Made by a program: the position numbers and the translations under genes. From an uncultured Lachnospiraceae bacterium (lineage in GTDB: Bacteria > Bacillota > Clostridia > Lachnospirales > Lachnospiraceae), in assembly GCA_946558465.1 (NCBI GenBank), contig CAMNTM010000018.1, forward strand, positions 1 to 60,254: DNA of 60,254 bases, written 5' to 3'. Below are positions 43,763-60,254 of this stretch, piece after piece; positions within the stretch are counted from its first letter, which is position 1; the number at the start of each line of letters is the position of its first letter. The notes under the pieces were generated by a model. That model saw only the letters and a program-made list of their open reading frames with translations. It was not told where the DNA came from and did no database searches.

Positions 43763-44533
43763 TTACGCTTTCCAGGGCGCTTCCCCAGAAAACCACAGCT
43801 TTTCCAGGTACTCCTTATCCCTCAGTGTATCCATCGGCGACCAGAAGCCTTTATGTCGATACGCGGTCATCTCCTCCTTCTCTGCCAGCAGCTCGAAGGG
43901 CCTCCCTTCCAGCATATCACACCCGTCTCCAAGATATTCGAAGATATCCGGCGTAAATACTCCATATCCCGCATTTACCCATGACTGGTCCGATCGGGCC
44001 TTTTCCTTGAAGTTTAGAATACACTCGGAAGCTTCATCTATCTTCACCGCACCAAAACGCCCGTCCGGCTTTGTTACGGTTATTGTTGCTGTCCTTCCGT
44101 TCCTTCGGTGGCATTCTATCAGCTCCGGGATATTTACATTGGAAACTCCGTCTCCATAGGTAAATAAGAATTCCTCGTCCTTTACATATTCCTGAATCTT
44201 AAGAATTCTTCCTGCTGTCAGTGTATTGAGTCCTGTATTTATCAAGGTCACCTTCCACGGCTCTATCCTGCTTTTTATGACCTCTTTTTCTCCGCTTTCC
44301 AGATCAATGCTTACGTCCGAATATCTGGAGTAATAATCCACGAAATACTGCTTTATCATATATCCCTTATATCCACAGCACAGTACAAATTCATGAAATC
44401 CGAAGCGGGAGTACCACTTCATGATATGCCACAGGATCGGCCGTCCCCCTATCTCCACCATAGGCTTCGGGCGGAACTGGGATTCCTCTCCGATTCTGGT
44501 CCCTTTTCCGCCTACTAAGATTACTACTTTCAT
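43763..44533 (-). CDS. rfbF: glucose-1-phosphate cytidylyltransferase (RfbF type)
   Basis: 256 aa. The nucleotide-binding signature VGGKGTRIGEE, then RPKPMVEIGGRPILWHIMK, and the metal Asp in FTYGDGVSNV are intact. It makes CDP-glucose from CTP and glucose 1-phosphate, the entry to CDP-3,6-dideoxyhexoses. The next enzyme (CDP-glucose 4,6-dehydratase) is not in the window unless it is outside the right edge. Last gene of the glycan island, starting about 4 bases after its paralog. GC content is higher than in the neighbouring methyltransferase genes. Confidence 0.92.
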   Translation of the reverse strand: MKVVILVGGKGTRIGEESQFRPKPMVEIGGRPILWHIMKWYSRFGFHEFVLCCGYKGYMIKQYFVDYYSRYSDVSIDLESGEKEVIKSRIEPWKVTLINTGLNTLTAGRILKIQEYVKDEEFLFTYGDGVSNVNIPELIECHRRNGRTATITVTKPDGRFGAVKIDEASECILNFKEKARSDQSWVNAGYGVFTPDIFEYLGDGCDMLEGRPFELLAEKEEMTAYRHKGFWSPMDTLRDKEYLEKLWFSGEAPWKA

Positions 44534-44537
44534 ATGT

Positions 44538-45326
44538 TCACCATACCTTCCAGGGTGCATTTCCCGTCTGCCACAGCTCCTCTAAGAACAGCTTGTCCCT
44601 CATGGTTTCTACCGGCATCCAGAAGCCTTCATGCTTATAGGTAGCTACCCGTCTTGTCCTTCTGAGACGGTTGATCGTGGTCGTCTCAAAGCTTTCCTGT
44701 GAAGCCAGATAGGTGAAGATCTCTCTGCTTAACACCATATGGCAGGTATTTACCCAGGCATCAGCCGCATAATTGTTCTGCAGCACGATGTCGGAGGCAA
44801 GGTTGCCGTCGGCGTCCAGATTGAGGATGGCATTGCGCCCGGCGGGACGTGCCACAGCCATCGTCACAAGATGAGGACTCTCATGATAGGCCGATAAGAG
44901 ATGGTTAATATTCAAATCGGTAATACAGTCCCCGTAGCAGACGATAAAGGCATCGTCGTCTATGTACTTCTGAATTTTTCGGATACGTTCGCCGGTAGTG
45001 GAATTAAGGCCGGTATCCACGACTGTAACCTTCCAGGGTTCGCTCACCTTATTATGGATCATAATATCATTTTTCTGCAGGTCTACGGTGATATCGGAGC
45101 TGTAGATGTAATAGTCAAGGAAGTATTCCTTGACAAGCTCGGCCCGGTAGCCGGTGCATATGATGAAATCATTAAAGCCGAAGCTGGAATAGGACTTCAT
45201 GATATGCCACAGGATCGGACGGTCCCCGATCTTTACCATCGGTTTTGGCATTTTATCGTTTTCTTCACTTATGTTGCTGGGCATGCCGCCAGCGAGGATG
45301 ATTACTTTCATAGAGTTTGTATTCAT
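44538..45326 (-). CDS. second cytidylyltransferase paralog with altered signature
   Basis: 262 aa, alignable with the RfbF gene downstream over its whole length (KPMVKIGDRPILWHIMK, EPWKVTVVDTGLNSTTGERI, EGFWMPVETMRDKLFLEELW). The catalytic signature GGxGTRIxEE is replaced by GGMPSNISEE, so the Gly-Thr-Arg that contacts the nucleotide phosphates is lost; the later GDG is GDC. It may be a pseudoenzyme or use another donor. Its ATG overlaps the stop of the preceding FkbM gene (ATGA), so it is translated. Possible start also at residue 6. Confidence 0.8.
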   Translation of the reverse strand: MNTNSMKVIILAGGMPSNISEENDKMPKPMVKIGDRPILWHIMKSYSSFGFNDFIICTGYRAELVKEYFLDYYIYSSDITVDLQKNDIMIHNKVSEPWKVTVVDTGLNSTTGERIRKIQKYIDDDAFIVCYGDCITDLNINHLLSAYHESPHLVTMAVARPAGRNAILNLDADGNLASDIVLQNNYAADAWVNTCHMVLSREIFTYLASQESFETTTINRLRRTRRVATYKHEGFWMPVETMRDKLFLEELWQTGNAPWKVW

Positions 45327-46492
45327 AATTTGGGGCTCCCTTTACGATTTTCATTTTCTACTACATACGCATACAGGATTGTGTCGTATGTAAAGGTAGT
45401 ATAATGCCGGATTTTAAATTTGTATTCTGGTACTAATTCTAAAATATACTGAGGTAGCGTAATAATATCTTCTGACCTATGATAAAGACATATAGCTAAT
45501 CTGGGCTTATACTTCTTAATTGTATTCTGAGCCCCTTTCAATGCCTCTTTTTCAGAGCCTTCAATATCCATTTTTATATAAGTGGCCTCATTACCGCCTA
45601 ATATATTATCCAATGAAACAACCTTAACCTCGTCTATTCCGGTATCCTTTACATGAGAACCTGTTCCGTCATCTCCTCCTCTTGTAATGTACAAGGTTTT
45701 ATTTTCACTCCAGAGTCCAGCGTCTATCAGTTCAATATCTCTGATTTTTTTCTTTAAAATATTATCGGATAATTTTTCAAAATTGAATTTATCAGGTTCA
45801 AGGCTGTATATTTTTTTGTAGGAAGGACACCATGCTGCAAATTCCTCTGCTGTCTCACCGCAGAACGCACCTGCATCAATAAAAACCTCATTCTTTTTAG
45901 GTTTGAAAATTTCATCTTCAAAATAAGGAGTTCCCCAATAAGATAACAAGCAGTTACGTTCATACTCGTAAATGAGTTGCTGAGATATATTCAATCCGGA
46001 AAGCTGCTGCTTTATTTCTGTATGATACTTATACGTTGCAATAATAACAATTGAACGTGCATACTTTTTCTCCAGCATATCTACAGAAATCACCGGACAG
46101 CCCTCGATAAATGTGCCACTCATTTCCGAGGAGTTATCACAAAAAGCTTTTGGTTCAAATCCAATTCTGCGCATCCAATATAGAATCTCTTTTCCAATAT
46201 CACCTGCCCCGAAAATGATAATATTCCCATCAGATTTCGGAAGCTTCTTTAAAAGAAAGCTGTATAAATCACATAGCTCATACAGGCGGAACATAGCCTG
46301 TGCTTCTTCACTTTTTTTAATAATCTCTCTTTGATATTTCCGTGCTGCTCCGCCCATCATGTCATAAATATACCTAATATCATCTGTCAAAGAATAAAGC
46401 AGCCTGTAAATATATATTTTTTTTGATTCTTCGTCCTCTAATTTGTCTATAATTCTGCGTATTACTTTTAAATCATCTTCACTAATCTTCAT
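45323..46492 (-). CDS. FkbM-family methyltransferase with N-terminal Rossmann-like module
   Basis: 389 aa. Residues 1-85 helical, about 90-185 a Rossmann-like module (IIIFGAGDIGKEIL ... FCDNSSEMSGTFIEGCPVISV), then an FkbM SAM-methyltransferase (about 195-380): VFIDAGAFCGETAEEF motif I, SLEPD, YIKMDIEGSEKEAL, and the AICLYHRSEDIITLP tail. FkbM enzymes O-methylate sugars and other hydroxyls. RBS CAGGAGAA. Part of the leftward glycan operon with overlap to the next gene. Confidence 0.88.
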   Translation of the reverse strand: MKISEDDLKVIRRIIDKLEDEESKKIYIYRLLYSLTDDIRYIYDMMGGAARKYQREIIKKSEEAQAMFRLYELCDLYSFLLKKLPKSDGNIIIFGAGDIGKEILYWMRRIGFEPKAFCDNSSEMSGTFIEGCPVISVDMLEKKYARSIVIIATYKYHTEIKQQLSGLNISQQLIYEYERNCLLSYWGTPYFEDEIFKPKKNEVFIDAGAFCGETAEEFAAWCPSYKKIYSLEPDKFNFEKLSDNILKKKIRDIELIDAGLWSENKTLYITRGGDDGTGSHVKDTGIDEVKVVSLDNILGGNEATYIKMDIEGSEKEALKGAQNTIKKYKPRLAICLYHRSEDIITLPQYILELVPEYKFKIRHYTTFTYDTILYAYVVENENRKGSPKL

Positions 46493-46528
46493 ACTGATTC
46501 TCCTGTACTGCTCTCCATACTTACAAAC

Positions 46529-47776
46529 TTATTTATTTACATATGCATACAGCTTTCCGTACGCTTTCTCTATTATGTAATTGGGATTTGCCTGTTTGAT
46601 CATAAATGATAATAAGGCGGGATCTTCCGGGTAATGATAGGTACAAATCGCAAGCTTAGGTGCAAATTTTTGCAGAACTTCTTTTGCTCCTGCTAAAAGC
46701 AGCCTTTCCGCCCCTTCAATATCTGCCTTGATAAAATCAAGTTTTGAAATATGATTCATCTCTACAAATTGATCCAACGTTATCGCTTCTATCTCTTCTG
46801 TTTCAGAACTGCCATTTACATTCATAATAGAGGCCGCCCCTGGATTTGAATTGTAATTTGTCACATTTATTTTACTTTTTCCACATGAATCGCTGAGCGC
46901 ATACGGCTCAATCATAATATTATCGTATAGATCTGCAGTTCGTTCCAATATCTTCCTTGTTTCCTTAACAGGCTCAAATGCATATACTCTTCCCCGCTTT
47001 GCTCTGCCTGCAGCAATAGCCGAAAACAGGCCATAATTTGCGCCAATATCAAAAACGACATCTTCCTCTTTGACAACTACCGCACCAAAATTATATGGCC
47101 CCTCAATATATTCAATATGTTCCATCTCCTCATCTATAACATCCATAAAAATATCAGAGCTTTCATATATAAATAGACTGGGATTTTTCATAAACAACTG
47201 ATAATCCAACTTTACTCCACGATATTCAAATATACGCTGTTCAATACCTGATACTAGTGCTGTAGTAAGAATTTCCAGAACATTAACTCTATAACTATTT
47301 TTAAATAATCTTTGACAGATATTTAATAAATTCTCTGCATTCTTTTTATATGTTTCCAGTGAAATCCCTTTCTTTTCTGCCTGCAAAAGCAGCATATTCA
47401 AAGAAAGACCTTCACACATATCAGGAATACTTATAATTCCACTCGAAATTATTCTGTCATACACAATAATCTTTTCCGGTTCGATACCCAGATTAAGCAG
47501 CTGATTTTTTATTTCATACCGGCTTCCTGCCAAAACAGCAACGTAATCAAACCCATAATCTCTGAAGTTTTCTGGTATATCTATACACACATTATCATAT
47601 GGAACATATACTTTACTTCCATCCACATATTGATATCCTTTTTTTACCAGGCCTCCTGCCTTACTTTTATCATTGTCAAAGAAAACACTGACATTAACAT
47701 CATCTTTCAATTCCCGCGCTGCAAATGCAATACAGCGTCCGCTGCCTCCAAACACTGCTATATTTATACTCTTCAT
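46529..47776 (-). CDS. FkbM-family methyltransferase with N-terminal Rossmann-like module
   Basis: 415 aa from the ATG at 47776 (GGAGG 8 bases upstream). Residues 1-110 form a Rossmann-like module (INIAVFGGSGRCIAFAAREL ... FFDNDKSKAGGL). An alpha-helical linker follows, then FkbM methyltransferase (about 235-410): VFDIGANYGLFSAIAAG, AFEPV, FIKADIEGAERLLLAGA, AICTYHYPEDPALL. Distinct in sequence from the other FkbM proteins here. Likely methylates a glycan or glycosylated flagellin; target unknown. Confidence 0.88.
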   Translation of the reverse strand: MKSINIAVFGGSGRCIAFAARELKDDVNVSVFFDNDKSKAGGLVKKGYQYVDGSKVYVPYDNVCIDIPENFRDYGFDYVAVLAGSRYEIKNQLLNLGIEPEKIIVYDRIISSGIISIPDMCEGLSLNMLLLQAEKKGISLETYKKNAENLLNICQRLFKNSYRVNVLEILTTALVSGIEQRIFEYRGVKLDYQLFMKNPSLFIYESSDIFMDVIDEEMEHIEYIEGPYNFGAVVVKEEDVVFDIGANYGLFSAIAAGRAKRGRVYAFEPVKETRKILERTADLYDNIMIEPYALSDSCGKSKINVTNYNSNPGAASIMNVNGSSETEEIEAITLDQFVEMNHISKLDFIKADIEGAERLLLAGAKEVLQKFAPKLAICTYHYPEDPALLSFMIKQANPNYIIEKAYGKLYAYVNK

Positions 47777-47795
47777 ATGACTTTCCTCCATGTCC

Positions 47796-49058
47796 CTACC
47801 AATTGATTTTTACAATGGCCTCCCTCTTAATACCAGATTCCAAGAGCTGTTCAGATATTATATCTATAATTTCCTGCCAGTGGCATATAACATAGACACT
47901 ATTGAAAGTACTATCTTCTTTTAATTTCTCATTTAGATTTTGAACATTATAGCCATGTTCAAATACAGATTTTACATTGTGATTGCTTCTGCTCGCATTA
48001 TTGTCCAAAAATCCAGAAATCTTGATCCGCTCCCTTTTCCATTTTTCCGCCAATAGGATATTATCCTGGCATGCGGGCAGTATATACACATTCTCGGATT
48101 CCCTTAACTTTTTAAACAGGCTTGTTCTGTATTTAGTCAGATAAGCATAGACATTTTCAGCTCCCCGAAGTACAGAAAGATAATTTTGGGGAATCCTGCA
48201 GCAGGCTGCCGATATTTCACCTATCATTTGTTTCCACTCCTGCTCAAATAAAAATCCTCGAATACACTGAGCCAACCATTGTTCAAACCATTGTTTCAAA
48301 AATTTTGTTTCTTTTTCCTGCTGCATCCAGTCGCTTAAAATATAAAAGCGTTCTTTAAAATACCGCTGCATTTTCCATCTGTCAGAATCCGCATTTTCTT
48401 TCAATGACTCAGTCGTATCTATGCGATAGTTATAGAATATCTTAGGATAATAATACACATTACATGCTGTTTGAAATAATCTCATAGTAAATATACTGTC
48501 CTCGCCATATAACAAATCTGGAAATGCAATATGATTTTCTAAAATTAAGTCTCTTCGAACAAAATAGCGCCAGGCAGACATAGGAAGCTGTGTATTCCAA
48601 TATGTATTCTCCAATATCTTTCTCATCGTCTGAAATCCTTCGACTGCTATGCCAGCCGGCTTTTTTACAGTTAATGCCTTCCCTTCTAAAATTTGCTGAT
48701 AGTCTACCAACAACAAATCTATATTTTGATTGTCCTTTAAAATGTTAATTATATTTTCTAATTCTTTTGTTACAATAAAGTCATCGGAATCCAAGAAATA
48801 TAAATATCTCCCATTAGCATGTCTTATCCCTTCATTACGGCTGACGGCCGGACCTTCCTGTTTGCTGTGTGATAAAATTTGTACATAAGGATATAATTCT
48901 GCATATTCTTTACATATATCTGGCCCTGAATCACAAGAAGCATCATCAATCAGTATCAATTCAAAATTCTGGCTCTTTGAATTAAAAATACTGTCCAGAC
49001 ATTCCTTTAGATATGCTTCTCTATTATAAAAAGGAAGGATAATTGACAACTGTTTCAT
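47796..49058 (-). CDS. family-2 glycosyltransferase with C-terminal Rossmann-like module
   Basis: 420 aa. GT-A fold at 1-230: SIILPFYNREAYLKECLDSI, LIDDASCDSGPDI and the DxD-type LYFLDSDDFIV. The last 95 residues (NVYILPACQDNILLAEKW ... GFLDNNASRSNHN) look like the same Rossmann-like module seen in its neighbours. The AT-rich composition matches the adjacent FkbM genes. Donor and acceptor are unknown. Confidence 0.88.
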   Translation of the reverse strand: MKQLSIILPFYNREAYLKECLDSIFNSKSQNFELILIDDASCDSGPDICKEYAELYPYVQILSHSKQEGPAVSRNEGIRHANGRYLYFLDSDDFIVTKELENIINILKDNQNIDLLLVDYQQILEGKALTVKKPAGIAVEGFQTMRKILENTYWNTQLPMSAWRYFVRRDLILENHIAFPDLLYGEDSIFTMRLFQTACNVYYYPKIFYNYRIDTTESLKENADSDRWKMQRYFKERFYILSDWMQQEKETKFLKQWFEQWLAQCIRGFLFEQEWKQMIGEISAACCRIPQNYLSVLRGAENVYAYLTKYRTSLFKKLRESENVYILPACQDNILLAEKWKRERIKISGFLDNNASRSNHNVKSVFEHGYNVQNLNEKLKEDSTFNSVYVICHWQEIIDIISEQLLESGIKREAIVKINW

Positions 49059-49079
49059 TTTAATTTAATCCTTTCCCTT

Positions 49080-51398
49080 TTATAATCCGGATATTTTTTC
49101 AAACAGCAGTGAAGCATCATATACGTTATATACTTCATATTTTGATGCATCTAATGTCTGTCCTCCGTAAGAATCTGTCCCTTCCTTATAGCATTTCTTC
49201 TGGCGTATGCCTGCAAGCTTTTCCTCATCTATCTTGCGGGGAGTGAGCGCTTTATGATAAATATTCTCGTCAAACCATTTCAGGAATTCTTCCCCATGCA
49301 GAGAGGCCGTATATCGGAAATAGTGGACCTTCTTATCAAACAGCGGGTCCCGGATATCCATCTGGCAGAACACGTCCAAAAACCATTTTCGAAAATCAAA
49401 GTGTTCTAAATCCGACTCCGCAATTATGCCCCGCGCAATCATGCGCAGGATACAATTATAAAGAGAGCTTTTATCTGTTGTCACTTCCGGCATCATACGC
49501 TCGTAGACAGAGGCACAATAGCCGCCGATATTCGCCGTCTTCTTTAAGTCGTTTAGAAACTCTGCCTCATCCTCTTTCAGCTCATACACCATATTGGCTT
49601 TTGCTCCCATCGAGCCGCCGGACATGCCTGCTATCGTTAATGGATAACGGATATTCAATATCTTTTCGTTAATTGCTGCATTTACTACTCCCATATATAT
49701 ATCCTGACATATTCCGTCAAAAAGGCGGCCGGTTTTTGCTAAAATCTTCTTCAGATAGTCTCTCCTGCAGCCGGAATTCAAGTAGAGATTCGGCAGAAGA
49801 TACATCTGGTCGCTGTTATTGAAGATAGAACCGAAATAAAACTGCCGGGTAAAATATTCCGGGCCGAAGCTTCCTTTCTGATAGCCTCTGGGAATGACAA
49901 ACTGATGCTGCTGTCCCCCGTTAAATCCGGGCCATGCGTAGAAGCCCCGCTCCCATTGGATCACATCCTCATCCGGATAGGTCTTTCTTAACTCCTCCAG
50001 CACCTCAAGTGTCCAGGGGAGAAGCGCATCATCTGAGCCTAAAGACAGGAGAAATTCTCCTTTCGCATGAAGGAAGGCAAATTCGAAGCTCCGGGAGAGA
50101 TTATATTCTCTTGGAGTTCTGTAATATTTAATTCTGGAATCATCAAGCTCCTTGTAGAGCTGGTATACTTCTGTGTTTCCCGGAGTGGAATTATCACTTA
50201 AGATAATTTCGTAATTTCCCTGATAACGCTGATTTAAACAGGACATAAGCGTATAGCGCAGGGTGCCTGCGGAATTTCTGGCAGGAATAATAATAGAATA
50301 ACTGCATTCTGCCGGCTGCGCTAAGAGCTTCGCGGCATCGGTATCGTGTACCTGGCTGATATAGCTTAGGTAGTTACCTGCCCAGCCGAAAGCCATCTGA
50401 GATTCCAGCGGAGGAGAAACAAAGCCATAGAGCCGCTCCAGATTTTTCTTTAATATGGGCTGCCGGCACAGGTTATCCATTAGTGTACCGCTTGTAAGTA
50501 TAACTGTAGTCTGCTGCTCCAGGTCATTTTGGAGGATATGATTCAGAAGATATTCCCTATTATCCCCTAAGTCCTCTCCTTTACATGTAACAGCTGCCGG
50601 ATAGATGGTATATATTCGTTCTGAAACTTCCACAGCGTCCATGCTGGCGACTACAGTATCTTCGATATTTATAATGTGGTCTACTTCAAATACAATGGGG
50701 GCTTTGATGTAATAAACCTTTTTTGAGAATTCCTGAAGAATATAACATGTAATCTTTTCATCCAAGCCGTCAGAAGCTTCATCTTCCACAAGAACAAAAG
50801 AAGCTTCTGATTTTTCTGTCAGACGCTCTGATAAAAAATCGTGATTAGAGAACTGCTCAAACCATTCATGTTCAATCGAAACAGACATACTTTTCAATCG
50901 TATATAACATGAAATCATATAATACATTATTTGATTTTGAGAAATAAAATATAAATCAAGTAATTGTTTCACGTTATATTCTGAAACAGGATTTTCTAAA
51001 AATTCAGTCTCCATTTTCCTTAAGTGTTGTTTTATTTCCTCAAACCACTTTTCATCTTTTTCCGTCTTAGTCTCGCAGCTGCTTAAAAAAAGAAACCGAT
51101 GTCTTTGTCTATCCAAATCATCATGATAACTACCAACTAATCTCATATAAAGCTCTGTCAATTCCGACATTCCTGGATATTCATATAAACACCAGCTTTT
51201 TTCAGTCAGACATTTAATTGCTGGCCCGGCCATTCGAGTTGATTTCCATATATATTTTGCTTTAGCTATATACCAGTTTAGCCTTATAGGCTTTATCTTA
51301 TATAGACTTTCAAGTCGCTCAAGTACGTCATTTATATTACCATTTTCTAAAAGTTCTAAACTTTGTTTCACTTTCAAGTTGTATTGATGTTCCGTCAT
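49080..51398 (-). CDS. large glycosyltransferase with helical N-terminal domain and GT2 domain
   Basis: 772 aa from the ATG at 51398 (GAGGG 7 bases upstream). Residues 1-360 are mainly helical with TPR-like character early on; 365-570 a GT2 catalytic domain: SYSIIIPARNSAGTLRYTLM, EIILSDNSTPG and LSLGSDDALL; 570-772 a C-terminal helical extension. Base composition shifts sharply at about 50.82-50.88 kb (residue about 180): 53 percent GC was counted at 49561-49620 and 22 percent at 50881-50940. This suggests a recombinant gene whose N terminus was exchanged. Function beyond glycosyl transfer unknown. Confidence 0.85.
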   Translation of the reverse strand: MTEHQYNLKVKQSLELLENGNINDVLERLESLYKIKPIRLNWYIAKAKYIWKSTRMAGPAIKCLTEKSWCLYEYPGMSELTELYMRLVGSYHDDLDRQRHRFLFLSSCETKTEKDEKWFEEIKQHLRKMETEFLENPVSEYNVKQLLDLYFISQNQIMYYMISCYIRLKSMSVSIEHEWFEQFSNHDFLSERLTEKSEASFVLVEDEASDGLDEKITCYILQEFSKKVYYIKAPIVFEVDHIINIEDTVVASMDAVEVSERIYTIYPAAVTCKGEDLGDNREYLLNHILQNDLEQQTTVILTSGTLMDNLCRQPILKKNLERLYGFVSPPLESQMAFGWAGNYLSYISQVHDTDAAKLLAQPAECSYSIIIPARNSAGTLRYTLMSCLNQRYQGNYEIILSDNSTPGNTEVYQLYKELDDSRIKYYRTPREYNLSRSFEFAFLHAKGEFLLSLGSDDALLPWTLEVLEELRKTYPDEDVIQWERGFYAWPGFNGGQQHQFVIPRGYQKGSFGPEYFTRQFYFGSIFNNSDQMYLLPNLYLNSGCRRDYLKKILAKTGRLFDGICQDIYMGVVNAAINEKILNIRYPLTIAGMSGGSMGAKANMVYELKEDEAEFLNDLKKTANIGGYCASVYERMMPEVTTDKSSLYNCILRMIARGIIAESDLEHFDFRKWFLDVFCQMDIRDPLFDKKVHYFRYTASLHGEEFLKWFDENIYHKALTPRKIDEEKLAGIRQKKCYKEGTDSYGGQTLDASKYEVYNVYDASLLFEKISGL

Positions 51399-51455
51399 TA
51401 ACACACCCTCTTTTCGAATATTACCATTATTCTAAATTTTAAATAATATTAAAAT

Positions 51456-52496
51456 CTAGAGTAATATTGACCCTTCTGGAAGTTCATAAGATACTTTCCG
51501 AACCAAAATGGAATTATCAAGCAATAATTTTTCCTCCAATTTTACTGCACTATCGCTTGTTACTATCTGGAATAGATAACGGAATAATTCTGTTTTCTCA
51601 ATATTTTCGTTAAAAACTTTTGATAAATTCAAGTATTTCATGGCAATATCAAATTTATCTGCCCTAATCATTTTCATAGCATAGCGTAAACACATATTTC
51701 CTAATTTTTGAATTGCTTCTGGCAGCCTTTCCTTTGGAAGTGTATATCCATACTGTGATGTTACTTTTGCTATTTTATGTATAATTTGATAATGCTCCAT
51801 AACAGCTGTCATATTATTTTCTGATTCCGCTGTTTCATTTTCACTATGAGTTCTGTATTGCATTAAAGGCTGCTTTAAATATGCAATATCACCAACACAC
51901 GACATTAAAGCATTATAATACCAGTCATTAGCCACTTGGAAAGTACATATCCATTCTTTAACCAATTCTATAGAGGAAACTCTCATTACGCGCTGACCTG
52001 GAATAGCAATTCCCGATTTCATAAATACTGCAGCCTGTTGTTCCCCGGAAATAATTCCGGAAGATTTATAAAACGGTGCAGAAACTGCTATTTTTCCCTG
52101 TGCATCTATCTCATCTCGATGTGTCATTACCATACTGACTTGTGGATATTCTTCTAATATTGAGATAGTCTTTTCCAAATAAGTTGGATAAAGAATGTCA
52201 TCACTTGCTAAAATTAAACGATATTGTCCTCTACTTTCTAAAGCACAAAGTTCTGAATTTCTATCACTCCCAAAATTATATGGGTTTTTCCTGATAACAA
52301 ATGAAATATTCTGTTGTGTAAATTTTTTTTTGTATTTTTCTGCTATTTCATAAGATTCATCTGTTGATGCATTATCACGAAATATCACTTCAAAATCGTG
52401 ATATGTCTGATCTAAGATACTTTCTAAACATGCTGGAAGAAATTTCGCGTAATTATAATTAGGAATACAAATACTGACTGCCGGTATTTTAAAAAT
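51456..52496 (-). CDS. family-2 glycosyltransferase, apparent AUU start
   Basis: 346 aa if begun at ATT 52496. No ATG, GTG or TTG exists in frame before GTG 52388, which would remove the first GT2 strand. Upstream in-frame sequence encodes FKIPAVSICIPNYNYAKFLP, colinear with the paralog at 52514-53563, and an upstream stop (TGA, 52503-52505) fixes the limit. GAGG sits 9 bases before this ATT. Later motifs include VIFRDNASTDESYEI and LILASDDILYP. The ATT may be a rare AUU initiator, or an ATG may have mutated and the gene is now poorly translated. A nine-A run lies at 52323-52331. Confidence 0.72.
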   Translation of the reverse strand: MFKIPAVSICIPNYNYAKFLPACLESILDQTYHDFEVIFRDNASTDESYEIAEKYKKKFTQQNISFVIRKNPYNFGSDRNSELCALESRGQYRLILASDDILYPTYLEKTISILEEYPQVSMVMTHRDEIDAQGKIAVSAPFYKSSGIISGEQQAAVFMKSGIAIPGQRVMRVSSIELVKEWICTFQVANDWYYNALMSCVGDIAYLKQPLMQYRTHSENETAESENNMTAVMEHYQIIHKIAKVTSQYGYTLPKERLPEAIQKLGNMCLRYAMKMIRADKFDIAMKYLNLSKVFNENIEKTELFRYLFQIVTSDSAVKLEEKLLLDNSILVRKVSYELPEGSILL

Positions 52497-52513
52497 AACA
52501 ATTCACCTCTTTT

Positions 52514-53563
52514 TTATTCAAACTCTTTTATTTGCACGCTGTCTTCCGGAGGGTCGTAAGACGTGCTTCTCACATATACTCCACTTGTTTTAAGCCTCTT
52601 TACTGCTTCATCTGGGTTTGGATCCTGAAGACATTTAACCAATTGTAAATATTGATTATCCGATTCCATTTCATTATGATATATTGTTGATAATTTCAAG
52701 TAATTTTGCGCTACCGAATAGTGTTTGTTAATAATCATTTTTCTGGCATAGCGCAGACTCATATACCCTAATTTTTTTATAGCGTCATTATATCTTTGCT
52801 GAGGCTTTATCATGCCAAATGAATCTGCTAAAATTCTAAATGCATTTATCATATTATAGTGCTCAAATATTCCCGTTAAATTTAACTCCGAATTTGAAGT
52901 TTCATTGTCTTCATGTATTCGATAATTAATCAAAGCCCTTTTAATATAGACAACATCACTTATACATGCCATCATAAAATTATCATACCAGTCTCCTGCA
53001 ACCTGAAAACGCAGAAGTTTAAATCTTAACATATTCAAATATGAAATTTTGCGGAATAATATCTGCGAAGATACTGCAATTCCAGCCATCATATATACAG
53101 CTGCCTGATCCTCTCCTTTTATAAAACAACTTTGATTATAAAAAGGAACTGTCTGTTTTTTAATTCCTTTATTATCTACCTCGTTACGATGTGCCATAAC
53201 ACATCCTGCTGAAGGATATTTTTCCAATGCCTGAACCATTATTTCTATTGCATCAGGCTCTAGACTATCATCAGAAGAAAGCCAGATAAAATACTCACCC
53301 TCTGATCTATGAAAACATTTTTCTGTATTTCCTCCACTTCCAATATTTCTCTTATTCTGTGAAATATCACACCATATCTTCCGCTCCAAAAATTTTTTTC
53401 GATATTCCGCTATTATGTCATATGAATTATCTGATGACCGATTATCACAAATAATAACCTCAAAATTATCATAGGTCTGCGATAAAACACTCTCAAGACA
53501 TTCTGGTAAAAATCGTCCATAATTATAATTGGGAACTAAAACACTAACTAATGGTTTTCTCAT
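52514..53563 (-). CDS. family-2 glycosyltransferase
   Basis: 349 aa from the ATG at 53563, whose GGAGGT is 5 bases upstream and which overlaps the FkbM stop as ATGA. GT2 domain: VSVLVPNYNYGRFLPECLESV, VIICDNRSSDNSYDI and IWLSSDDSLEP. The C-terminal 200 residues are helical. It is a full-length paralog of the 51456-52496 gene with matching C-terminal blocks (QVAGDWYDN versus QVANDWYYN), so the two arose by tandem duplication and probably add related sugars. Confidence 0.9.
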   Translation of the reverse strand: MRKPLVSVLVPNYNYGRFLPECLESVLSQTYDNFEVIICDNRSSDNSYDIIAEYRKKFLERKIWCDISQNKRNIGSGGNTEKCFHRSEGEYFIWLSSDDSLEPDAIEIMVQALEKYPSAGCVMAHRNEVDNKGIKKQTVPFYNQSCFIKGEDQAAVYMMAGIAVSSQILFRKISYLNMLRFKLLRFQVAGDWYDNFMMACISDVVYIKRALINYRIHEDNETSNSELNLTGIFEHYNMINAFRILADSFGMIKPQQRYNDAIKKLGYMSLRYARKMIINKHYSVAQNYLKLSTIYHNEMESDNQYLQLVKCLQDPNPDEAVKRLKTSGVYVRSTSYDPPEDSVQIKEFE

Positions 53564-54663
53564 AATTGACCTCCAATATATGCATAACAATCTGTATCCC
53601 AGACTGTTGGAGCGTGATGTCGAAGACATATTTTATACTCTGGCACCATTTCCTTTATCAGTCTTGGTACTTCCCACAAATCGGATAAATAATGATATAC
53701 ACTGATACATAACTTGGGTCGTTGTTCTATAATAGTTTCTCTTGCGCCATTCAGCGCTTTTATTTCAAATGTTTCAACATCCATTTTAATAAAGGTTACT
53801 TTCTTGCCATTTAAAGCCTTGTCTATCGTTGTTATATGTTCTGTATGCTTTGCTTTTCCCTGAATATAGCCATACTCTAACTCCGATGTTTCATCAGATA
53901 CACCAGCATTAATTAACATAATTTTTTCGCGGTCATATTTATCTGCTGTTTCTTCTAATTCCTTGAAAATATCTGAATCCAGTTCAAACGAATAAATCCC
54001 GCCAAACTTACCGTCTGTTACCTTTAAAAATTTATCAATAGAATCTCCCTTATACGCTCCTGCATCCACTAGATATTCACTATCTCCCATTTGGAAAACA
54101 TCTGTTTCAAAATATTCTCCCGGAGTTTTTATTTCATTAAAAATTTTTTCGGCAAGTGGTGGTGCAATCCTATTGCAGACAGCCTCAACATAAATTTCTT
54201 TTGACTTGTCATCCTCAAATAAATCAATAGTGCTCACAATCTTATTTCTATTATTTTCAAACCATTCATCACTATAGTGTATATCATATACATTAAGTGC
54301 ATACCAATCCATTGGATAGCATTCAATCCCCATATCCGTTAACTGCTTATATACAGGACGCCACTCTCCAATCATGATTAATACTGCAATATCCTCCATC
54401 TGAGCAATTTCCTCCGGAGAAAGACATTTTCTTCCTTTAAAAAGCTTTCCCCATCGTTCTGGATTATTGTCCCCGACATATTCAAATCTCCGCATATGCT
54501 CAGGTGTTGCACAATCTTCGAAAAATTCACCTGTACCAAATACACATACATTTTTATGAGAATATAACGTTTTTCTTATTTCTAAAGCTCGCTCATGTGT
54601 CTTATAGTGTGTTTGAATTGCATAATCTACCGCTTTATGCAATCTTTCTTTTCTACTATTCAT
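53560..54663 (-). CDS. FkbM-family methyltransferase with N-terminal Rossmann-like module
   Basis: 367 aa from the ATG at 54663 (AAGGAG upstream), overlapping the previous stop by 8 bases. N-terminal module (about 35-125): VCVFGTGEFFEDC ... VGDNNPERWGKLFKGRKCLSPEE, the closest match to the C-terminal module of the radical SAM protein at 58728. FkbM domain: EYLVDAGAYKGDSIDKF, SFELD, FIKMDVETFEIKALNGA, CISVYHYLSDLWEVP. Motif II has MDVETFE rather than MDIEGSE. Confidence 0.88.
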   Translation of the reverse strand: MNSRKERLHKAVDYAIQTHYKTHERALEIRKTLYSHKNVCVFGTGEFFEDCATPEHMRRFEYVGDNNPERWGKLFKGRKCLSPEEIAQMEDIAVLIMIGEWRPVYKQLTDMGIECYPMDWYALNVYDIHYSDEWFENNRNKIVSTIDLFEDDKSKEIYVEAVCNRIAPPLAEKIFNEIKTPGEYFETDVFQMGDSEYLVDAGAYKGDSIDKFLKVTDGKFGGIYSFELDSDIFKELEETADKYDREKIMLINAGVSDETSELEYGYIQGKAKHTEHITTIDKALNGKKVTFIKMDVETFEIKALNGARETIIEQRPKLCISVYHYLSDLWEVPRLIKEMVPEYKICLRHHAPTVWDTDCYAYIGGQL

Positions 54664-56011
54664 CTTTGTTCTCCTTTTCCCAAACTCTATCTTCATATGT
54701 TTTTCTATCATATGCATCTATTTTTCCTTGTAACGCAGACGGTGCATTTCCAGGGACTCCTTCACAATAACCACATGTATAATAAAATGGTTTATCTACA
54801 AATTCTCTAAAACGTTGTCTTTTTTCTTCCAGGTTTATATTCTGAGTCAAGTCAAAATAATCTTCTCGGAAATCTGCAACTCCTGTGGCATATAAAGCAA
54901 CACCCTTATCGCATACATGAACCTTCCCATCCCTTACCTGGAGATTTCTTGGAGGCATCGAACAGCCTTGTTTTCTTTTAGTCATATACTCTATATCATC
55001 ACTTACTTTATAAAGACCGGAAGGAATGATCCAGGTTGGCAAATGCCTTGATTCCGTATACGCTATTCCATATGATTTTACTAATTCTATATTTTTTTCA
55101 TATATTTCTAGCTGTTGTTGGCTGGCAACATGTTGATATGCTCCAAAGGCAATAATAACCCTCTTATCTTCTATTCCTTCCAATTGCTGTGGTTTGATAG
55201 GGTATAGACCATTTGTCGGAAATGATATAAACCCGAAATTTTCATGTTCTGCAAATTTATTTACAATTCTGGATATATCTGGATGCATAAATGTTTCTCC
55301 ACCCATTACACTGATTGTGCCAACCGAATCTATCATCTCTAACCATAAATCAATATCTCGGCAGATAGCTTCTGTAGAAATATTTACCCTTGCTTTTGAA
55401 GGATAATTATTAATGAATTGTACACAATGTGTACAGTTCAAATTACAAAGAGAATTAAGTATAAAACAGTTGTATGTAAGATCTATTCTTTCCCCGGGCT
55501 TTTCAACTTTCGTTTTACATTTTGTTATTGTCTGGAATCTTTGGCAAATAACAGATCTGCATTCTCCCTTCATCCAACATACACCTGCTGCCGGTGTATC
55601 CCCCTTACAATATGGGCAGAGAATTCCACTGTATAAAATATCACCACGTATTACATGTTCATATTTATTTTGCCTTAAGTCTATTAATAGGGAACGCATA
55701 ATAACATGATTCGGTATGCTATATATAATAAGAGTATTGTTTCTATCATACTCCTCAGAAAAAGGAGCTTCTATTTTCCGTCCGCCTATCGGACCTATTT
55801 CCTTATACCTTAGATCCCAATATACAAGATTGGAAATTTTATGTTGTTCAAGAAATCTGCCAATCGCCTGTCCAAGCCCTGCTGAGCCCCAAATAATTAC
55901 TGTCTGAAAGCTTTTTATATAAGCAATTACTCCCTGCGTTTCTACCTTTTCTCCAGATTCGCACTGTGTATAGAATTCTTCCAAGTTGAATGTACTTTGT
56001 TCTTTTAACAT
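54656..56011 (-). CDS. radical SAM enzyme with N-terminal Rossmann-like module
   Basis: 451 aa. Residues about 33-125 form a Rossmann-like module (VIIWGSAGLGQAIGRFL). A cysteine-rich segment (CPYC 132-135, then Cys145, 151, 156, 165) precedes the radical SAM core with CNLNCTHC (Cys189, 193, 196) and GGE-type MGGETFMHP. Further Cys near the C terminus (GCSMPP, HVCDKG, TCGYCEG) suggest SPASM-like auxiliary clusters. A sugar epimerase or dehydratase, or a peptide modifier, are possible; substrate unknown. RBS is upstream of 56011 but weak. Confidence 0.85.
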   Translation of the reverse strand: MLKEQSTFNLEEFYTQCESGEKVETQGVIAYIKSFQTVIIWGSAGLGQAIGRFLEQHKISNLVYWDLRYKEIGPIGGRKIEAPFSEEYDRNNTLIIYSIPNHVIMRSLLIDLRQNKYEHVIRGDILYSGILCPYCKGDTPAAGVCWMKGECRSVICQRFQTITKCKTKVEKPGERIDLTYNCFILNSLCNLNCTHCVQFINNYPSKARVNISTEAICRDIDLWLEMIDSVGTISVMGGETFMHPDISRIVNKFAEHENFGFISFPTNGLYPIKPQQLEGIEDKRVIIAFGAYQHVASQQQLEIYEKNIELVKSYGIAYTESRHLPTWIIPSGLYKVSDDIEYMTKRKQGCSMPPRNLQVRDGKVHVCDKGVALYATGVADFREDYFDLTQNINLEEKRQRFREFVDKPFYYTCGYCEGVPGNAPSALQGKIDAYDRKTYEDRVWEKENKDE

Positions 56012-56089
56012 ATTAACTATCCTTTCTTATATCCATTTCTCCCATGATTAATATATCCATTATTATTCTGATACCTTTATGATTTTTGT

Positions 56090-57541
56090 TTAAAAACCAT
56101 CTAAATGATTAAATAATTTCACTGATTCTGAGAGTGGCAATTCTAACGAATTATTTAATTTATCTAAAAAGAAAAATTCTTTCCCGTCTCTAAATCCATA
56201 TCTTTCAGTTAACAAATTACCTATTGCCGCTCCAGCTCCCTCATAATAATGATTTGCTGTAATAATAATTACCAACTCATTTTTGCTAATTTTCTCTATA
56301 CAATCTGTACTTTCGATTATAAAATCACTTACACGGTTTGCATTCCAATCCTTTACTCCCTTAAAACATTCGTTTGTCTTTTTCCCTATTTTATTACAGT
56401 CACTGTCTACAATTGTGAAATTCTTACACTTCAAAATATATCTAAAATATCGTCGTAACGCCCATTGTGCTTTATCACCGGCTCCCCAAAAGACTAAATG
56501 CATGTTTTCAAATTTATGATTTACTACTTCCTCAAATATTGTATGTTCTCTTAAAGTATTATTCATTTCTATTTTTTTCTGAAAATCACTAATATATGAA
56601 GCCTTCATTCCATCATAGTAAACAGCTGGTTTCGTGTTTTCATAAAAATTACTTAGAGTACATATAGAATTCCATTTATTATACGTTTCACTAATTTTCT
56701 GAACCGCCAAATTAATCGTATACTCTTTCAACCATTCAATATCTATTGGTTCTGGCTGCCAGTTAATAGCACCAAATTCGCTTAGTTTATAAGGTTTAAT
56801 AATACGATCCAAACCTGAAAATCTATTATCATATAGATCGCCATTATGACAAATATGTGCTAACACAACCGGAATCCCCATTGCTATACAAGGAAGTGCA
56901 ACATGTAATCTTTTGGTTACAACCAATGTCGCTTCTTTTTTAAGCTTTTGAAATATATCATCTAAAATAGCCTTTGCTTCATGTCCGTTTTCTTCTTTGT
57001 ATCCTTGATACTTCATTTCCCGGGTTGGAGGCTCAATAATTTCACTATTTTCTAATAATTCTTTAGGTATATAATCAACTAACTCTTCCGGCGGATCATA
57101 TAAAAAAACTTTTTCTGTTGATGGTATCTCCTCTCTTTTTTCATAGCAAATACTCATGCAACCACTCATATATGCATTTAACCCATTACGCCGCATCAAA
57201 TTCATAGTTGAAAGGTCCCTGCAGCCAAAAGGCCCCCAGTTTCTATGTGCTTTATAAACCTCTTCAATCAAGGATTCATCTACACAATGAAATCCTAAAT
57301 ATACCGGAATAATTTTTGATGGCCACGGAAATAAGTGTATTGTTCTTACAGTTGAGAAAAAACCAGCCATAGGCAAAACAACATAATCTCCATCATATTC
57401 TGTTATTTTATTTCTTTCAATTTCAACGATATCATTTTTATCAATATGCATTCTTTTATACGCTTGACGTATTCCCTCTAACTGCGCGTAATCCCCTAAA
57501 TTCATTCCCCTACTTGAATATTTTAATATTCCAAATTTCAT
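56090..57541 (-). CDS. polysaccharide pyruvyltransferase with C-terminal Rossmann-like module
   Basis: 483 aa from the ATG at 57541 (GGAG 9 bases upstream, overlap avoided). PS_pyruv_trans domain (PF04230): NLGDYAQLEGI, GPFGCRDLSTMNLMRRNGL and VTKRLHVALPCIAMGIPVVL. It would transfer a ketal pyruvate from phosphoenolpyruvate to a sugar. The C-terminal 130 residues (LVFWGAGDKAQWALRRYF ... IVDSDCNKIGKKTN) are the recurring module. Acidic pyruvyl-sugars are typical of surface polysaccharides. Confidence 0.88.
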   Translation of the reverse strand: MKFGILKYSSRGMNLGDYAQLEGIRQAYKRMHIDKNDIVEIERNKITEYDGDYVVLPMAGFFSTVRTIHLFPWPSKIIPVYLGFHCVDESLIEEVYKAHRNWGPFGCRDLSTMNLMRRNGLNAYMSGCMSICYEKREEIPSTEKVFLYDPPEELVDYIPKELLENSEIIEPPTREMKYQGYKEENGHEAKAILDDIFQKLKKEATLVVTKRLHVALPCIAMGIPVVLAHICHNGDLYDNRFSGLDRIIKPYKLSEFGAINWQPEPIDIEWLKEYTINLAVQKISETYNKWNSICTLSNFYENTKPAVYYDGMKASYISDFQKKIEMNNTLREHTIFEEVVNHKFENMHLVFWGAGDKAQWALRRYFRYILKCKNFTIVDSDCNKIGKKTNECFKGVKDWNANRVSDFIIESTDCIEKISKNELVIIITANHYYEGAGAAIGNLLTERYGFRDGKEFFFLDKLNNSLELPLSESVKLFNHLDGF

Positions 57542-57545
57542 TTCA

Positions 57546-58706
57546 TCAAACTCCATTCCATCTTAAACAATCTTCTATCCATTCCTCCAGGCACATTGGG
57601 ATTCTTCTTAATGTATAATTTCGATTTACTCCTATACGAATATAGTCCTGTTTAAATTGAAGATTTAAAGCCTGTTTAACACAGCCGTATATGAAGATTT
57701 CTGCCCCATCCAGAAATCTTCCAATTCTATCATATTCTATAATTTCGATCCCTAAATGCTTCAAAATACGTCGTCCTTTTTCACAAATTACCTCTTCTAT
57801 AGGATGATAAGGATCATAAAATAATTGTTTTTGTTGATAGTGCTCAAGTATATAATCAGAAATTATTATGTCGCATTTATTTTCCCTCTTCTTTAATTTT
57901 TGTATAGCCTGATTAAATGTTTTGACAACAACTTCTTTTTCATATACTATTTCATTCTCTATTTTATCTTTAATTATTTCTGCGTTCAGACCATTCCATA
58001 TCGTATTTATATTTACATCAAGAAACCCTATGTTTATTATTGCATTTTTCCTTCCTTGATAATTTTCCCTGTATCCAAGCGCATCTTCCGTAAAGTGTTT
58101 TAGAAAACCTTTATGATTTTCTATACCCCCCCCCACACATTCTATTTGTGGAAAATACAAGTTCGTTCCATATAAATTAGGTATAACAATCTTCAAACAG
58201 TTTTTTGACGCTCCCGCCTTTAATTCTTCTATCGAATGATATCCGCCTTTATTCCAAATATCCTGCCCAATTAACAGACTGCAATGCACCAAATCATTTC
58301 CATTGGGATATTCTCCATTCGAAACAAAAAACCTTTTTATATAATATTCACCCGCAAATTTAGGATTAGAATTTAAATATTTTTCTAATATTTCCATATG
58401 ACAATTTCCGTATAATATAGCGAGCTTTTTTCCAATTCTTTCGCTAAACGAATAATTCACATATTCTTTTAAACCTATTTCTTCCAGTCTTTTTGCCATT
58501 TCATTACGATGCGGCACTGCCCCTGCTATAACAACGAAGTATTCTTTAAGTTTTTCATTTATTTCTGATATATCATAAACTGGAAGTCCGTGAAAAGTTC
58601 TGTTATATTCCCTATCAATACAGAAAATTATTTCAAAATCATTTTTCCAACGCCAATAAAATTTTTCCCCTTCTAGGCCAATTCCATATAAAACGATCTT
58701 ATCCAT
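57546..58706 (-). CDS. WcbI-family polysaccharide biosynthesis protein with N-terminal Rossmann-like module
   Basis: 386 aa. Residues 1-90 are the recurring module (IVLYGIGLEGEKFYW ... FCIDREYNRTFHGLPV). Residues 95-370 resemble WcbI/putative acetyltransferase proteins: LAILYGNCHMEILEKYL with GNC at 100-102. A nine-G homopolymer lies in the coding strand at 58126-58134, encoding VGGGI at about residue 191; the frame is open here, so the gene is ON. The gap to the ribosome site GGAG is long (15 bases), so the start may be elsewhere. Confidence 0.78.
   Translation of the reverse strand: MDKIVLYGIGLEGEKFYWRWKNDFEIIFCIDREYNRTFHGLPVYDISEINEKLKEYFVVIAGAVPHRNEMAKRLEEIGLKEYVNYSFSERIGKKLAILYGNCHMEILEKYLNSNPKFAGEYYIKRFFVSNGEYPNGNDLVHCSLLIGQDIWNKGGYHSIEELKAGASKNCLKIVIPNLYGTNLYFPQIECVGGGIENHKGFLKHFTEDALGYRENYQGRKNAIINIGFLDVNINTIWNGLNAEIIKDKIENEIVYEKEVVVKTFNQAIQKLKKRENKCDIIISDYILEHYQQKQLFYDPYHPIEEVICEKGRRILKHLGIEIIEYDRIGRFLDGAEIFIYGCVKQALNLQFKQDYIRIGVNRNYTLRRIPMCLEEWIEDCLRWNGV
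58126..58134 (-). repeat. nine-base G tract in coding sequence (possible contingency locus)
   Basis: Nine consecutive C on the plus strand, so G9 in the coding strand, about half way through the WcbI-family gene. G tracts of eight or more in surface-structure genes are prone to slipped-strand mispairing. A one-base change would frameshift the gene. Confidence 0.8.
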
Positions 58707-58727
58707 AATACGGTAGATGAACTCCTT

Positions 58728-60011
58728 TTATTTAGTCATACTTTTCTTTTTAACCTTTTGTAATACTCTGCACTTCTTATCTATCTCACCGATTAAAATA
58801 CAATTATTTATACCCATATTGTTAAGTTGAGAAATAATACTGTCCCCATTTTTTACAAACAAAACAACTAATAAATTCTGATACTTTCCAAGTTCAGATG
58901 GTTTCACACACTCTATTCCATTAAAGTGTGTTCCGTACAATTCAGGATTGTTATCAGAAAATACCGTCACTTCTAGTCCTTCATGCCAATATTCTTGATA
59001 AAAATGATCTCTCCAAAGCTTTCCAATTCCAAACACGCATACATTCTCTGCTGCTACAAACCGCTGAAGCAAATCATTCATATCATCAGAAAAATTCTGT
59101 TCTTTTTTTCCTAAGCGTATATCAGAAATTATTTTTTTGAGTTGCATCGCTGGTAAATCTTCTACTTTAACGGCGTCGCCACACGTTCTGCACAAAATAT
59201 CTATAGTATCATCTGTTAACCCATTTTTAAATTTCTTATATTCTTCACCTTCGCAAATTTCTAACCAAGATTGAGTAATGAGATTCCCCAAAACATGTTT
59301 CATTCCATAATCCTGGCAACATAACACTAAACTTCCATCTGGAAACATAACAGGCGCCCATCCGCCAACTTGGGCTTCTGAGCCATGATAGCATGCAATC
59401 CTGCCATTTTTATATGTTGACATTTTCTCAAAGCCTTCTAAATTCCCGGCTCTATTTCCCAATGCAATTCCAGCATATTTTTCTTTATCAATAATATCCT
59501 GGATTAATGAATTAACATTTCCATGGCAGGAATAATAATCTATATCAATTGTTTTATTGACAGATTCCAGAAGTTTACGATATTCTCCAGTAATTTCGAA
59601 TTTTGAATGACCTTCCTCGTCTGGTATATGTAAAACAAAGCTGTCAAACTTTATAGTTTTTATTTTGTTGAAGTCTTCCATTGTCATTCCTACAAGCGTT
59701 GTTAACAATGAAATTTTATAGCCCTTTTCATAGGCATAGCAAATCATATCGGCACATCTTTCATTGAGGAAAGGTTCTGACATTCCACAAAAAGAAATAG
59801 TCGCTCCTGCCTGTACTTTATCAAGTGCGATTTTAAAATCTTCAAAGCTTAATTTATTTTTCCTATCTTTTCTTTCACTATAATATCTATTCAACAATAG
59901 TTTCTGTGGGCAATATATACAATCCACCTTACATCCTATTGTTAATGATAATTCTAAAGCATGTAATTTTTCTGCTTTCACTTGCTCTTTCACCTCTATT
60001 TTTTTAAGCAT
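58728..60011 (-). CDS. radical SAM/SPASM enzyme with C-terminal Rossmann-like module
   Basis: 427 aa. Radical SAM core with CKVDCIYC (Cys27, 31, 34) and a GMSEPFLN GGE-equivalent strand. A SPASM-like region follows: PDGSLVLCCQDYGMKHVLGNL and CRTCGDAV. The last 110 residues form the recurring module (VCVFGIGKLWRDHF ... FSDNNPELYGTHFNGIECVKPSE). The start lacks a strong ribosome site (AAAGAAAAT). Substrate unknown; sugar or peptide modification are both plausible given the neighbours. Confidence 0.87.
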   Translation of the reverse strand: MLKKIEVKEQVKAEKLHALELSLTIGCKVDCIYCPQKLLLNRYYSERKDRKNKLSFEDFKIALDKVQAGATISFCGMSEPFLNERCADMICYAYEKGYKISLLTTLVGMTMEDFNKIKTIKFDSFVLHIPDEEGHSKFEITGEYRKLLESVNKTIDIDYYSCHGNVNSLIQDIIDKEKYAGIALGNRAGNLEGFEKMSTYKNGRIACYHGSEAQVGGWAPVMFPDGSLVLCCQDYGMKHVLGNLITQSWLEICEGEEYKKFKNGLTDDTIDILCRTCGDAVKVEDLPAMQLKKIISDIRLGKKEQNFSDDMNDLLQRFVAAENVCVFGIGKLWRDHFYQEYWHEGLEVTVFSDNNPELYGTHFNGIECVKPSELGKYQNLLVVLFVKNGDSIISQLNNMGINNCILIGEIDKKCRVLQKVKKKSMTK

Positions 60012-60059: not shown

Positions 60060-60254
60060 TTATAGCCTCCGAATCCCGTCCTCAAAGGCAGTCTCACACC
60101 GAAAACCCAGCCCCGCAAGCCTCTCTGTATCCGGCTCCAGCCAGAACGTCCGCCTCTCGTCCGTCTTCCTTGCTCCGAACCAAAGCTTCCCTCCCGGCCT
60201 TATGATGTCCCGCTCCGTCTCCAGGAACTCCTTAAGCTTCCTAATGTCCCCGCT
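60060..60254 (-). CDS. 3' end of a nucleotide-sugar epimerase/dehydratase (partial)
   Basis: The last 64 codons and a TAA stop at 60060-60062; the start lies outside the window. The read ends with LEPDTERLAGLGFRCETAFEDGIRRL, the pattern seen at the C terminus of NAD-dependent epimerase/dehydratases (LGWxPxxSFEEGIRRT). The GC content is about 59 percent over 60061-60240 (106 of 180 counted), against about one third in the next gene. So this gene is compositionally distinct from the AT-rich glycan genes. Confidence 0.75.
   Translation of the reverse strand, partial: SGDIRKLKEFLETERDIIRPGGKLWFGARKTDERRTFWLEPDTERLAGLGFRCETAFEDGIRRL

Follow-up and report, generated by a model that had tools for sequence, protein, structure and literature searches.

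The complete contig analysed here (contig C18, 60254 bases, hereafter the window), from a 3.1 Mb genome of an uncultured Lachnospiraceae bacterium spread over 34 contigs, contains, beyond its flagellar and chemotaxis part, a glycan island whose 13 genes all lie on the minus strand (43763-60011). Eight proteins of this island, encoded at 45323-60011, each carry one Rossmann-like block of about 90 residues, and the eight copies can be aligned as a single block with an invariant Asp. Judged by profile comparison, the block is a homologous Rossmann-like domain of the PglD_N/VioB/3nkl/Rex/CAC2185 superfamily that is added on to many bacterial glycan enzymes. The add-on domain is real, widespread and of a known kind; a role in sugar-nucleotide binding is inferred, with the chances about evenly balanced. 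The eight copies (modules A, B, C and G to K) are given below with the open reading frame (ORF) that holds them, their E-value in a module profile and their hhalign probability; GT2 stands for glycosyltransferase family 2 and SAM for S-adenosylmethionine.

45959..46240, minus strand: module A, N-terminal part (residues 85-178) of an FkbM-family methyltransferase (ORF 45323-46492); profile 7.7e-24; hhalign 99.5%
47456..47779, minus strand: module B, N-terminal part (residues 5-112) of an FkbM-family methyltransferase (ORF 46529-47791); profile 2.9e-7; hhalign 97.3%
47802..48113, minus strand: module C, C-terminal part (residues 316-419) of a GT2 glycosyltransferase (ORF 47796-49058); profile 7.3e-6; hhalign 96.2%
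54298..54567, minus strand: module G, N-terminal part (residues 51-140) of an FkbM-family methyltransferase (ORF 53560-54717); profile 6.7e-13; hhalign 98.5%
55640..55918, minus strand: module H, N-terminal part (residues 32-124) of a radical SAM protein (ORF 54656-56011); profile 1.1e-4; hhalign 95.3%
56177..56524, minus strand: module I, C-terminal part (residues 345-460) of a polysaccharide pyruvyltransferase (ORF 56090-57556), with a long insert; profile 2.6e-3
58449..58706, minus strand: module J, N-terminal part (residues 1-86) of a WcbI-family protein (ORF 57546-58706); profile 1.5e-12; hhalign 98.4%
58782..59060, minus strand: module K, C-terminal part (residues 318-410) of a radical SAM/SPASM protein (ORF 58728-60011); profile 3.8e-15; hhalign 98.4%

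The profile was seeded from the window and trained on other genomes only, with 56 modules at first and 304 later. An initial annotation of the window had described one block fused to eight different enzymes. The ORFs and motifs lie where it placed them and the independent profile recovers all eight copies, but the enzymes are of five kinds by Pfam (three FkbM, two radical SAM, one GT2, one pyruvyltransferase and one WcbI). Among all ORFs of the window, the profile matched no further module. With hhalign, for which E-values against a single template are uncalibrated and probabilities alone were used, all eight reach 94.8-99.5%, against 0.1-2.0% for nine control domains of the window, a set without any Rex-like protein. 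Modules A, G, J and K are clear members with the 304-module profile (7.7e-24 to 1.5e-12). In the range of B, C, H and I, the same genome also holds a Rex-like protein of 213 aa (9.8e-7), proteins of 664 aa (4.3e-6) and 353 aa (0.0018), and a ketopantoate reductase named by Pfam (0.0022). Since Rex-like and generic Rossmann proteins score alike, the kinship of these four modules is placed at superfamily level only. Common ancestry of the block, as read from the profiles, is thus strong for A, G, J and K, whereas B, C, H and I are tied in at superfamily level. Relatives strengthen the case for H and I: a paralogue of module H in a second glycan island of the same genome (contig C20, locus L006) scores 2.1e-7 with the profile and raises the hhalign probability to 97.0%, and a homologue of module I in locus L129 scores 9.9e-6. 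Pairwise identity among the window modules is 9-27%, similar to that of random module pairs (19.3 +/- 5.3%), and on this ground a recent duplication of modules inside the island was rejected. The sole hint of transfer within the island comes from module K, which is closer to the module of its neighbour G (44.9 bits) than to any other.

AlphaFold2 (AF2) models of A, the strongest copy, and I, the weakest, predict one topology (strand-helix-strand-strand-helix-strand-helix-strand); the full-length model of A has a mean predicted local distance difference test score (pLDDT) of 89.1. Segment I, the input alignment of which included other modules, is modelled with the fold of the family and comes closest to 2g6t, and the remaining six modules were judged by profile. 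The view of one Rossmann-like, possibly PglD-like module is thereby borne out, as the two models share a single topology and PglD/VioB, Rex, 3nkl and 2g6t are among the best relatives. Pfam searches of 73 modules (eight from the window) at E-values up to 0.1 gave PglD_N (13), C2185-like_N (11), CoA_binding (11), Methyltransf_14 (9) and 2-Hacid_dh_C (9); several family names are thus matched rather than one, yet all of them are of Rossmann type. Against module A, PglD_N (PF17836, cutoff 23.4 bits) scores 24.0 bits with the segment, 23.5 in a six-frame search and 20.9 with the whole protein. The whole protein of J reaches 18.8 bits against the same cutoff, and the other six window proteins give no match at E-values up to 1. 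Across the six-frame search of the genome, PglD_N exceeds its cutoff at module A only, by a margin of 0.1 bit. The matches of the module profile in the PDB are 3nkl, Rex, 2g6t and VioB, together with generic nicotinamide adenine dinucleotide (phosphate), NAD(P), enzymes (7xdu, 1.4e-6; 3fbt, 2.7e-6; STEAP4, 1.4e-5).

A structure from Methylobacillus flagellatus (PDB 2py6, an FkbM methyltransferase released in 2007) already combines FkbM with an N-terminal Rossmann module, and both of its domains align along one chain. However, its module scores only 1.2 bits against A, too distant by sequence, it is not among the PDB matches listed for the profile, and it represents a single enzyme kind. The structural comparison of full-length A gave a list filled by methyltransferases, with little on the module beyond 2py6. 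The CAC2185-type protein (PDB 2g6t, Pfam C2185-like_N) is uncharacterized according to its PDB title and has a C-terminal part, presumably DUF1919, that differs from the partners in the window. In PglD, VioB and Pcryo_0637 the Rossmann domain is fused to a left-handed beta-helix acetyltransferase, whereas the window partners are other enzymes; Pfam finds no Hexapep acetyltransferase domain in the eight window proteins. Rex, an NADH-sensing redox repressor with a DNA-binding domain, resembles the module in sequence profile and fold, but Pfam finds no Rex-type winged-helix DNA-binding domain in the eight proteins. The Rossmann-like domains of 3nkl and WbaP belong to membrane-bound dehydratases and phosphoglycosyltransferases, whereas the partners in the window are tailoring and transfer enzymes. 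Methyltransf_14 (PF08484), the C-terminal domain of dTDP-sugar (deoxythymidine diphosphate-sugar) C-methyltransferases (4rv9) and tied to one methyltransferase type, matches nine of the 73 modules, with 4rv9 itself a weak match (0.08). In other genomes, four of the 54 proteins with a C-terminal module match it (best 1.9e-15); in the window no protein does. A search of titles and abstract openings, which most subscription journals lie outside, found no description of the repeated fusion.

The spread of the module was followed in 101 scanned loci (L-numbers), namely the window, L006, 15 stretches (one from the window's own genome) and 84 loci of two further scans, with L069 left out of the counts because its contig and that of L050 are equally long (93544). 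Of these, 80 loci, the best of 496 obtained with an FkbM+module alignment as the query, are biased to FkbM. The module occurs in 87 of the 101 loci. There, 304 ORFs carry a total of 312 modules, of which 209 are N-terminal, 73 C-terminal and 14 internal, while 16 stand alone. More than one module, namely two or three, is present in seven proteins; three stand in a row at L107:4122-6152, two in tandem at L049:6358-8034, and L070:7971-9470 has modules at both ends. The Pfam partners on the same ORF are FkbM, radical SAM, GT2, GT4, Gly_transf_sug, Caps_synth, TylF, GT-D, MptE-like, LicD, Glyphos_transf, TupA ATP-grasp, WbsX, RgpF, PIG-L, class I methyltransferases, aldo-keto reductase, GNAT, WcbI and pyruvyltransferase, amounting to about twenty enzyme families and 58 sequence clusters. 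These partner sets comprise 46 and 25 proteins and, from L064-L148, 100 of 161 proteins with N-terminal and all 54 with C-terminal modules, the omitted N-terminal ones belonging mostly to the FkbM set. Judged by the titles of their records, loci with FkbM and module belong to many groups, including Lachnospiraceae, Treponema, Selenomonas, Bacillus, Fibrobacterales, Lentisphaerae, Chloroflexota, Nitrospirae, Isosphaeraceae, Verrucomicrobia, Saccharibacteria, Microcystis and Bacteroidales. Within the family, 67 of 200 genomes have the module at an E-value of 1e-10; because this survey took no more than 25 candidates from each genome, the per-genome counts are lower bounds. The window's genome has eight clear modules on C18, four on C20 and one on C25, those on C18 and C20 inside glycan islands. 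Gut-bacterial glycan islands are rich in proteins with an unannotated end domain, and here one profile picks it up.

The residues of the putative pocket are well conserved over the 312 modules (effective number of sequences, Neff, 289). The first Gly is present in 94%, the second in 86%, the third is Gly in 54% or Ala in 16%, and the Asp after strand 2 is present in 91%, followed by Asn (42%), Ser (16%) or Arg (12%). N-terminal, C-terminal, internal and standalone modules alike retain the Asp (88-94%) and the GxG motif (69-83%). All eight window modules have the Asp, seven the first Gly, five GxG and five Asp-Asn; module C is without the GxG loop and retains Asp-Asn. The Asp-Asp pair of PglD type occurs in none of the eight and in 8 of the 312. 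In PglD-type enzymes the Asp contacts the ribose (Asp40 in Pcryo_0637) and the next Asp the uracil, both PglD and Pcryo_0637 having Asp-Asp (PMC8040287). In our reading, the strand-2 Asp of the module would be the counterpart of this ribose Asp, in a nucleotide-binding site that appears to be retained with altered base recognition. Because the residue after the Asp is most commonly Asn, compared to Asp in PglD and in the uridine diphosphate (UDP) binder Pcryo_0637, a base other than uracil, or a different contact, would be expected. VioB, the substrate of which is dTDP-linked, has Asp-Asn at that position. As a guess, the first ligand candidates would be cytidine diphosphate (CDP)- or dTDP-sugars, given the two adjoining nucleotidyltransferases, which we take to be cytidylyltransferase-like. 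The shared ligand-binding function of the initial annotation is thus plausible, with the Gly loop and the strand-2 Asp retained.

The explanation that we favour, by analogy and with an even chance, is that the domain grips a sugar-nucleotide by its nucleotide part on behalf of the enzyme on its own chain. It would bind the nucleotide of a sugar-nucleotide or of a nucleotide-linked glycan, as in PglD-type acetyltransferases, and upon binding would present or sense the substrate for the catalytic domain of the same chain. The strand-2 Asp would hold the ribose in the manner of Asp40 of Pcryo_0637, while the following residue, most commonly Asn, would read the base. If so, this base-reading residue would be a handle to predict the activated sugars used by an island. 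The delivery of one common donor to all partners, which had also been suggested, is unlikely, because the partner families use different donors (SAM, nucleotide-sugars and phosphoenolpyruvate).

A comparison of modules across partners and islands covered 276 of the 304 proteins (partner part of at least 200 aa in total), in 58 single-linkage partner clusters and with loci largely chosen via FkbM. Modules of the same partner cluster share on average 9.0 bits across loci and 24.0 within a locus (59 pairs). For different clusters the mean is 3.2 bits across loci and 3.89 within a locus. Shuffling the locus labels inside each cluster gives 3.81 +/- 0.31, and 195 of 500 shuffles equal or exceed the observed same-island, different-partner mean. 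The nearest neighbour (n=276) belongs to the same cluster in a different locus for 171 modules, to a different cluster in a different locus for 78, to the same cluster and locus for 18, and to a different cluster in the same locus for 8, with none for one. Modules thus resemble those of the same enzyme family and not those of the same island, which points to a function within the individual enzyme and counts against an island-specific dock; a dock common to all islands would be invisible to the shuffled-label comparison. The proposal that the module holds the island enzymes together is not borne out by these figures or by the window identities, which are like those of random pairs, and island-wide docking is unsupported.

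Modules also occur without an enzyme. The C20 island encodes a 107-aa protein that is the module alone, located between a GT2 and another module-bearing protein. Among the 16 standalone ORFs, six are cut off where the retrieved DNA ends (L055, the first of L072, L080, L090, L093 and L134). Judged by eye, five of the ten that remain have an N-terminal hydrophobic stretch, and two (L099 and L141) are maybe broken FkbM pieces. Furthermore, relatives have a family of 155-169 aa in which an N-terminal hydrophobic stretch and a conserved linker precede the module, with Tyr-Gly after strand 1 and the Asp invariant in 20 of 20 copies:

L049:1875-2339, L049:8051-8527, L051:1111-1602, L105:2356-2859 and L112:352-825: enzyme-free copies with hydrophobic stretch
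L169-L176, L178, L181, L182, L185, L196 and L197: 15 further ORFs with hydrophobic stretch

A locus has up to two such copies. None of four tested has a Pfam name above cutoff. Among the 200 family genomes, 27 match the alignment of these copies, a count that takes in fused forms, WbsX glycosyltransferases among them; the window's genome has no match to this apparently membrane-anchored family. Kyte-Doolittle hydropathy of the first 45 residues was compared in 12 loci picked for their match to the anchored family, which favours the result: module ORFs below 200 aa reach at least 1.2 in 15 of 16 cases and at least 1.6 in 9 of 16, fused ORFs in 3 and 0 of 61, and module-free ORFs in 17 and 11 of 125. 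From hydropathy alone, the enzyme-free copies apparently have an N-terminal membrane helix. These copies offer a route to ask whether islands act as assembled complexes.

The existence of copies without a catalytic domain, some with a hydrophobic stretch, keeps a docking function in play. In such an assembly role like would pair with like, maybe in a nucleotide-gated manner, so that island enzymes form a complex with the enzyme-free or membrane-anchored copies as hubs. The standalone copies are the best argument for this, even with two of the ten complete ones maybe being broken FkbM; in addition, all 12 loci with a hydrophobic-stretch match also hold fused modules (61 of 161 ORFs of at least 200 aa), and seven proteins have more than one module. 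However, same-island modules of different partners are no more alike than shuffled ones, five of the 13 island genes have no module, the window's genome lacks a match to the anchored family, and plain docking does not require a conserved Gly/Asp pocket, which together make an assembly role rather unlikely. A more specific form, which we regard as unlikely, has the module self-associate under nucleotide control, with catalytically empty hubs of Lachnospiraceae islands recruiting module-bearing methyltransferases, radical SAM enzymes and glycosyltransferases from their own island to an assembly line switched by the sugar-nucleotide supply. Several hubs, up to two per island, would be membrane-anchored through their N-terminal helix, and in the window's genome the soluble copy of 107 residues encoded in the second island would act as the hub.

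The likeness to Rex could instead point to a sensor of NAD(H) or another adenine nucleotide that tunes glycan enzymes to the redox state. This is improbable, as the Pfam-named partners are mostly glycan enzymes, the sugar-nucleotide-binding relatives Pcryo_0637 and VioB are about equally close, and methyltransferases, glycosyltransferases and the pyruvyltransferase share no redox logic. Another reading is that the module is an inert leftover which no longer binds a ligand and serves to stabilise or link. Such a leftover would fit the low pairwise identity in the window, the missing Gly loop of module C, the presence of GxG in just five of eight modules and the variable residue after the Asp, but the retention of the first Gly and the Asp across so diverse a set of modules, of the Asp even in standalone copies, makes it quite improbable. 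Finally, several unrelated Rossmann-like domains may merely look alike. With the family profile, B, C, H and I do not outscore Rex or generic Rossmann proteins, and members fall to different Pfam families; sequence alone fails to part these four from Rex or ketopantoate reductase. Against this stand the hhalign probabilities of all eight modules compared to at most 2% for the controls, none of them Rex-like, and the family fold modelled for segment I from an alignment containing other modules, so that unrelated folds are very improbable.

The first 43000 bases of the window presumably hold mostly flagellar and chemotaxis genes. The island itself comprises, by Pfam, two nucleotidyltransferases, three FkbM, four GT2, two radical SAM, one pyruvyltransferase and one WcbI. 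Its module-free genes are:

43763..45326, minus strand: two nucleotidyltransferase genes (Pfam NTP_transferase), no module match
49080..53629, minus strand: three GT2 genes (Pfam GT2; 774, 310 and 371 aa), no module match at E <1

The nucleotidyltransferases look, by our assumption, like glucose-1-phosphate cytidylyltransferase (RfbF-like). About 360 N-terminal residues of the 774-aa GT2 protein (49080-51404) have no Pfam assignment. At 60076-60254 a minus-strand open frame is cut by the contig end, and its tail looks like the tail of an NAD-dependent sugar-nucleotide epimerase; because of this truncated frame, the island or its sugar-nucleotide genes probably continue past the contig end. A simple hydropathy count, which gives 4-7 for four flagellar export genes of the window, finds no polytopic membrane protein in 43763-60011 and L199-L210 (at most two stretches per ORF), so that nothing there points to a flippase or polymerase. 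The second glycan island of the genome (L006 3716-13227; G000:C20:48715-58226) opens with a nucleotidyltransferase gene pair that is, by eye, nearly identical to that of the window. The C-terminal two thirds of its GT2 likewise look identical to the 774-aa protein, while the upstream genes differ. At the sequence level, this looks like a recent exchange between the C20 and C18 islands.

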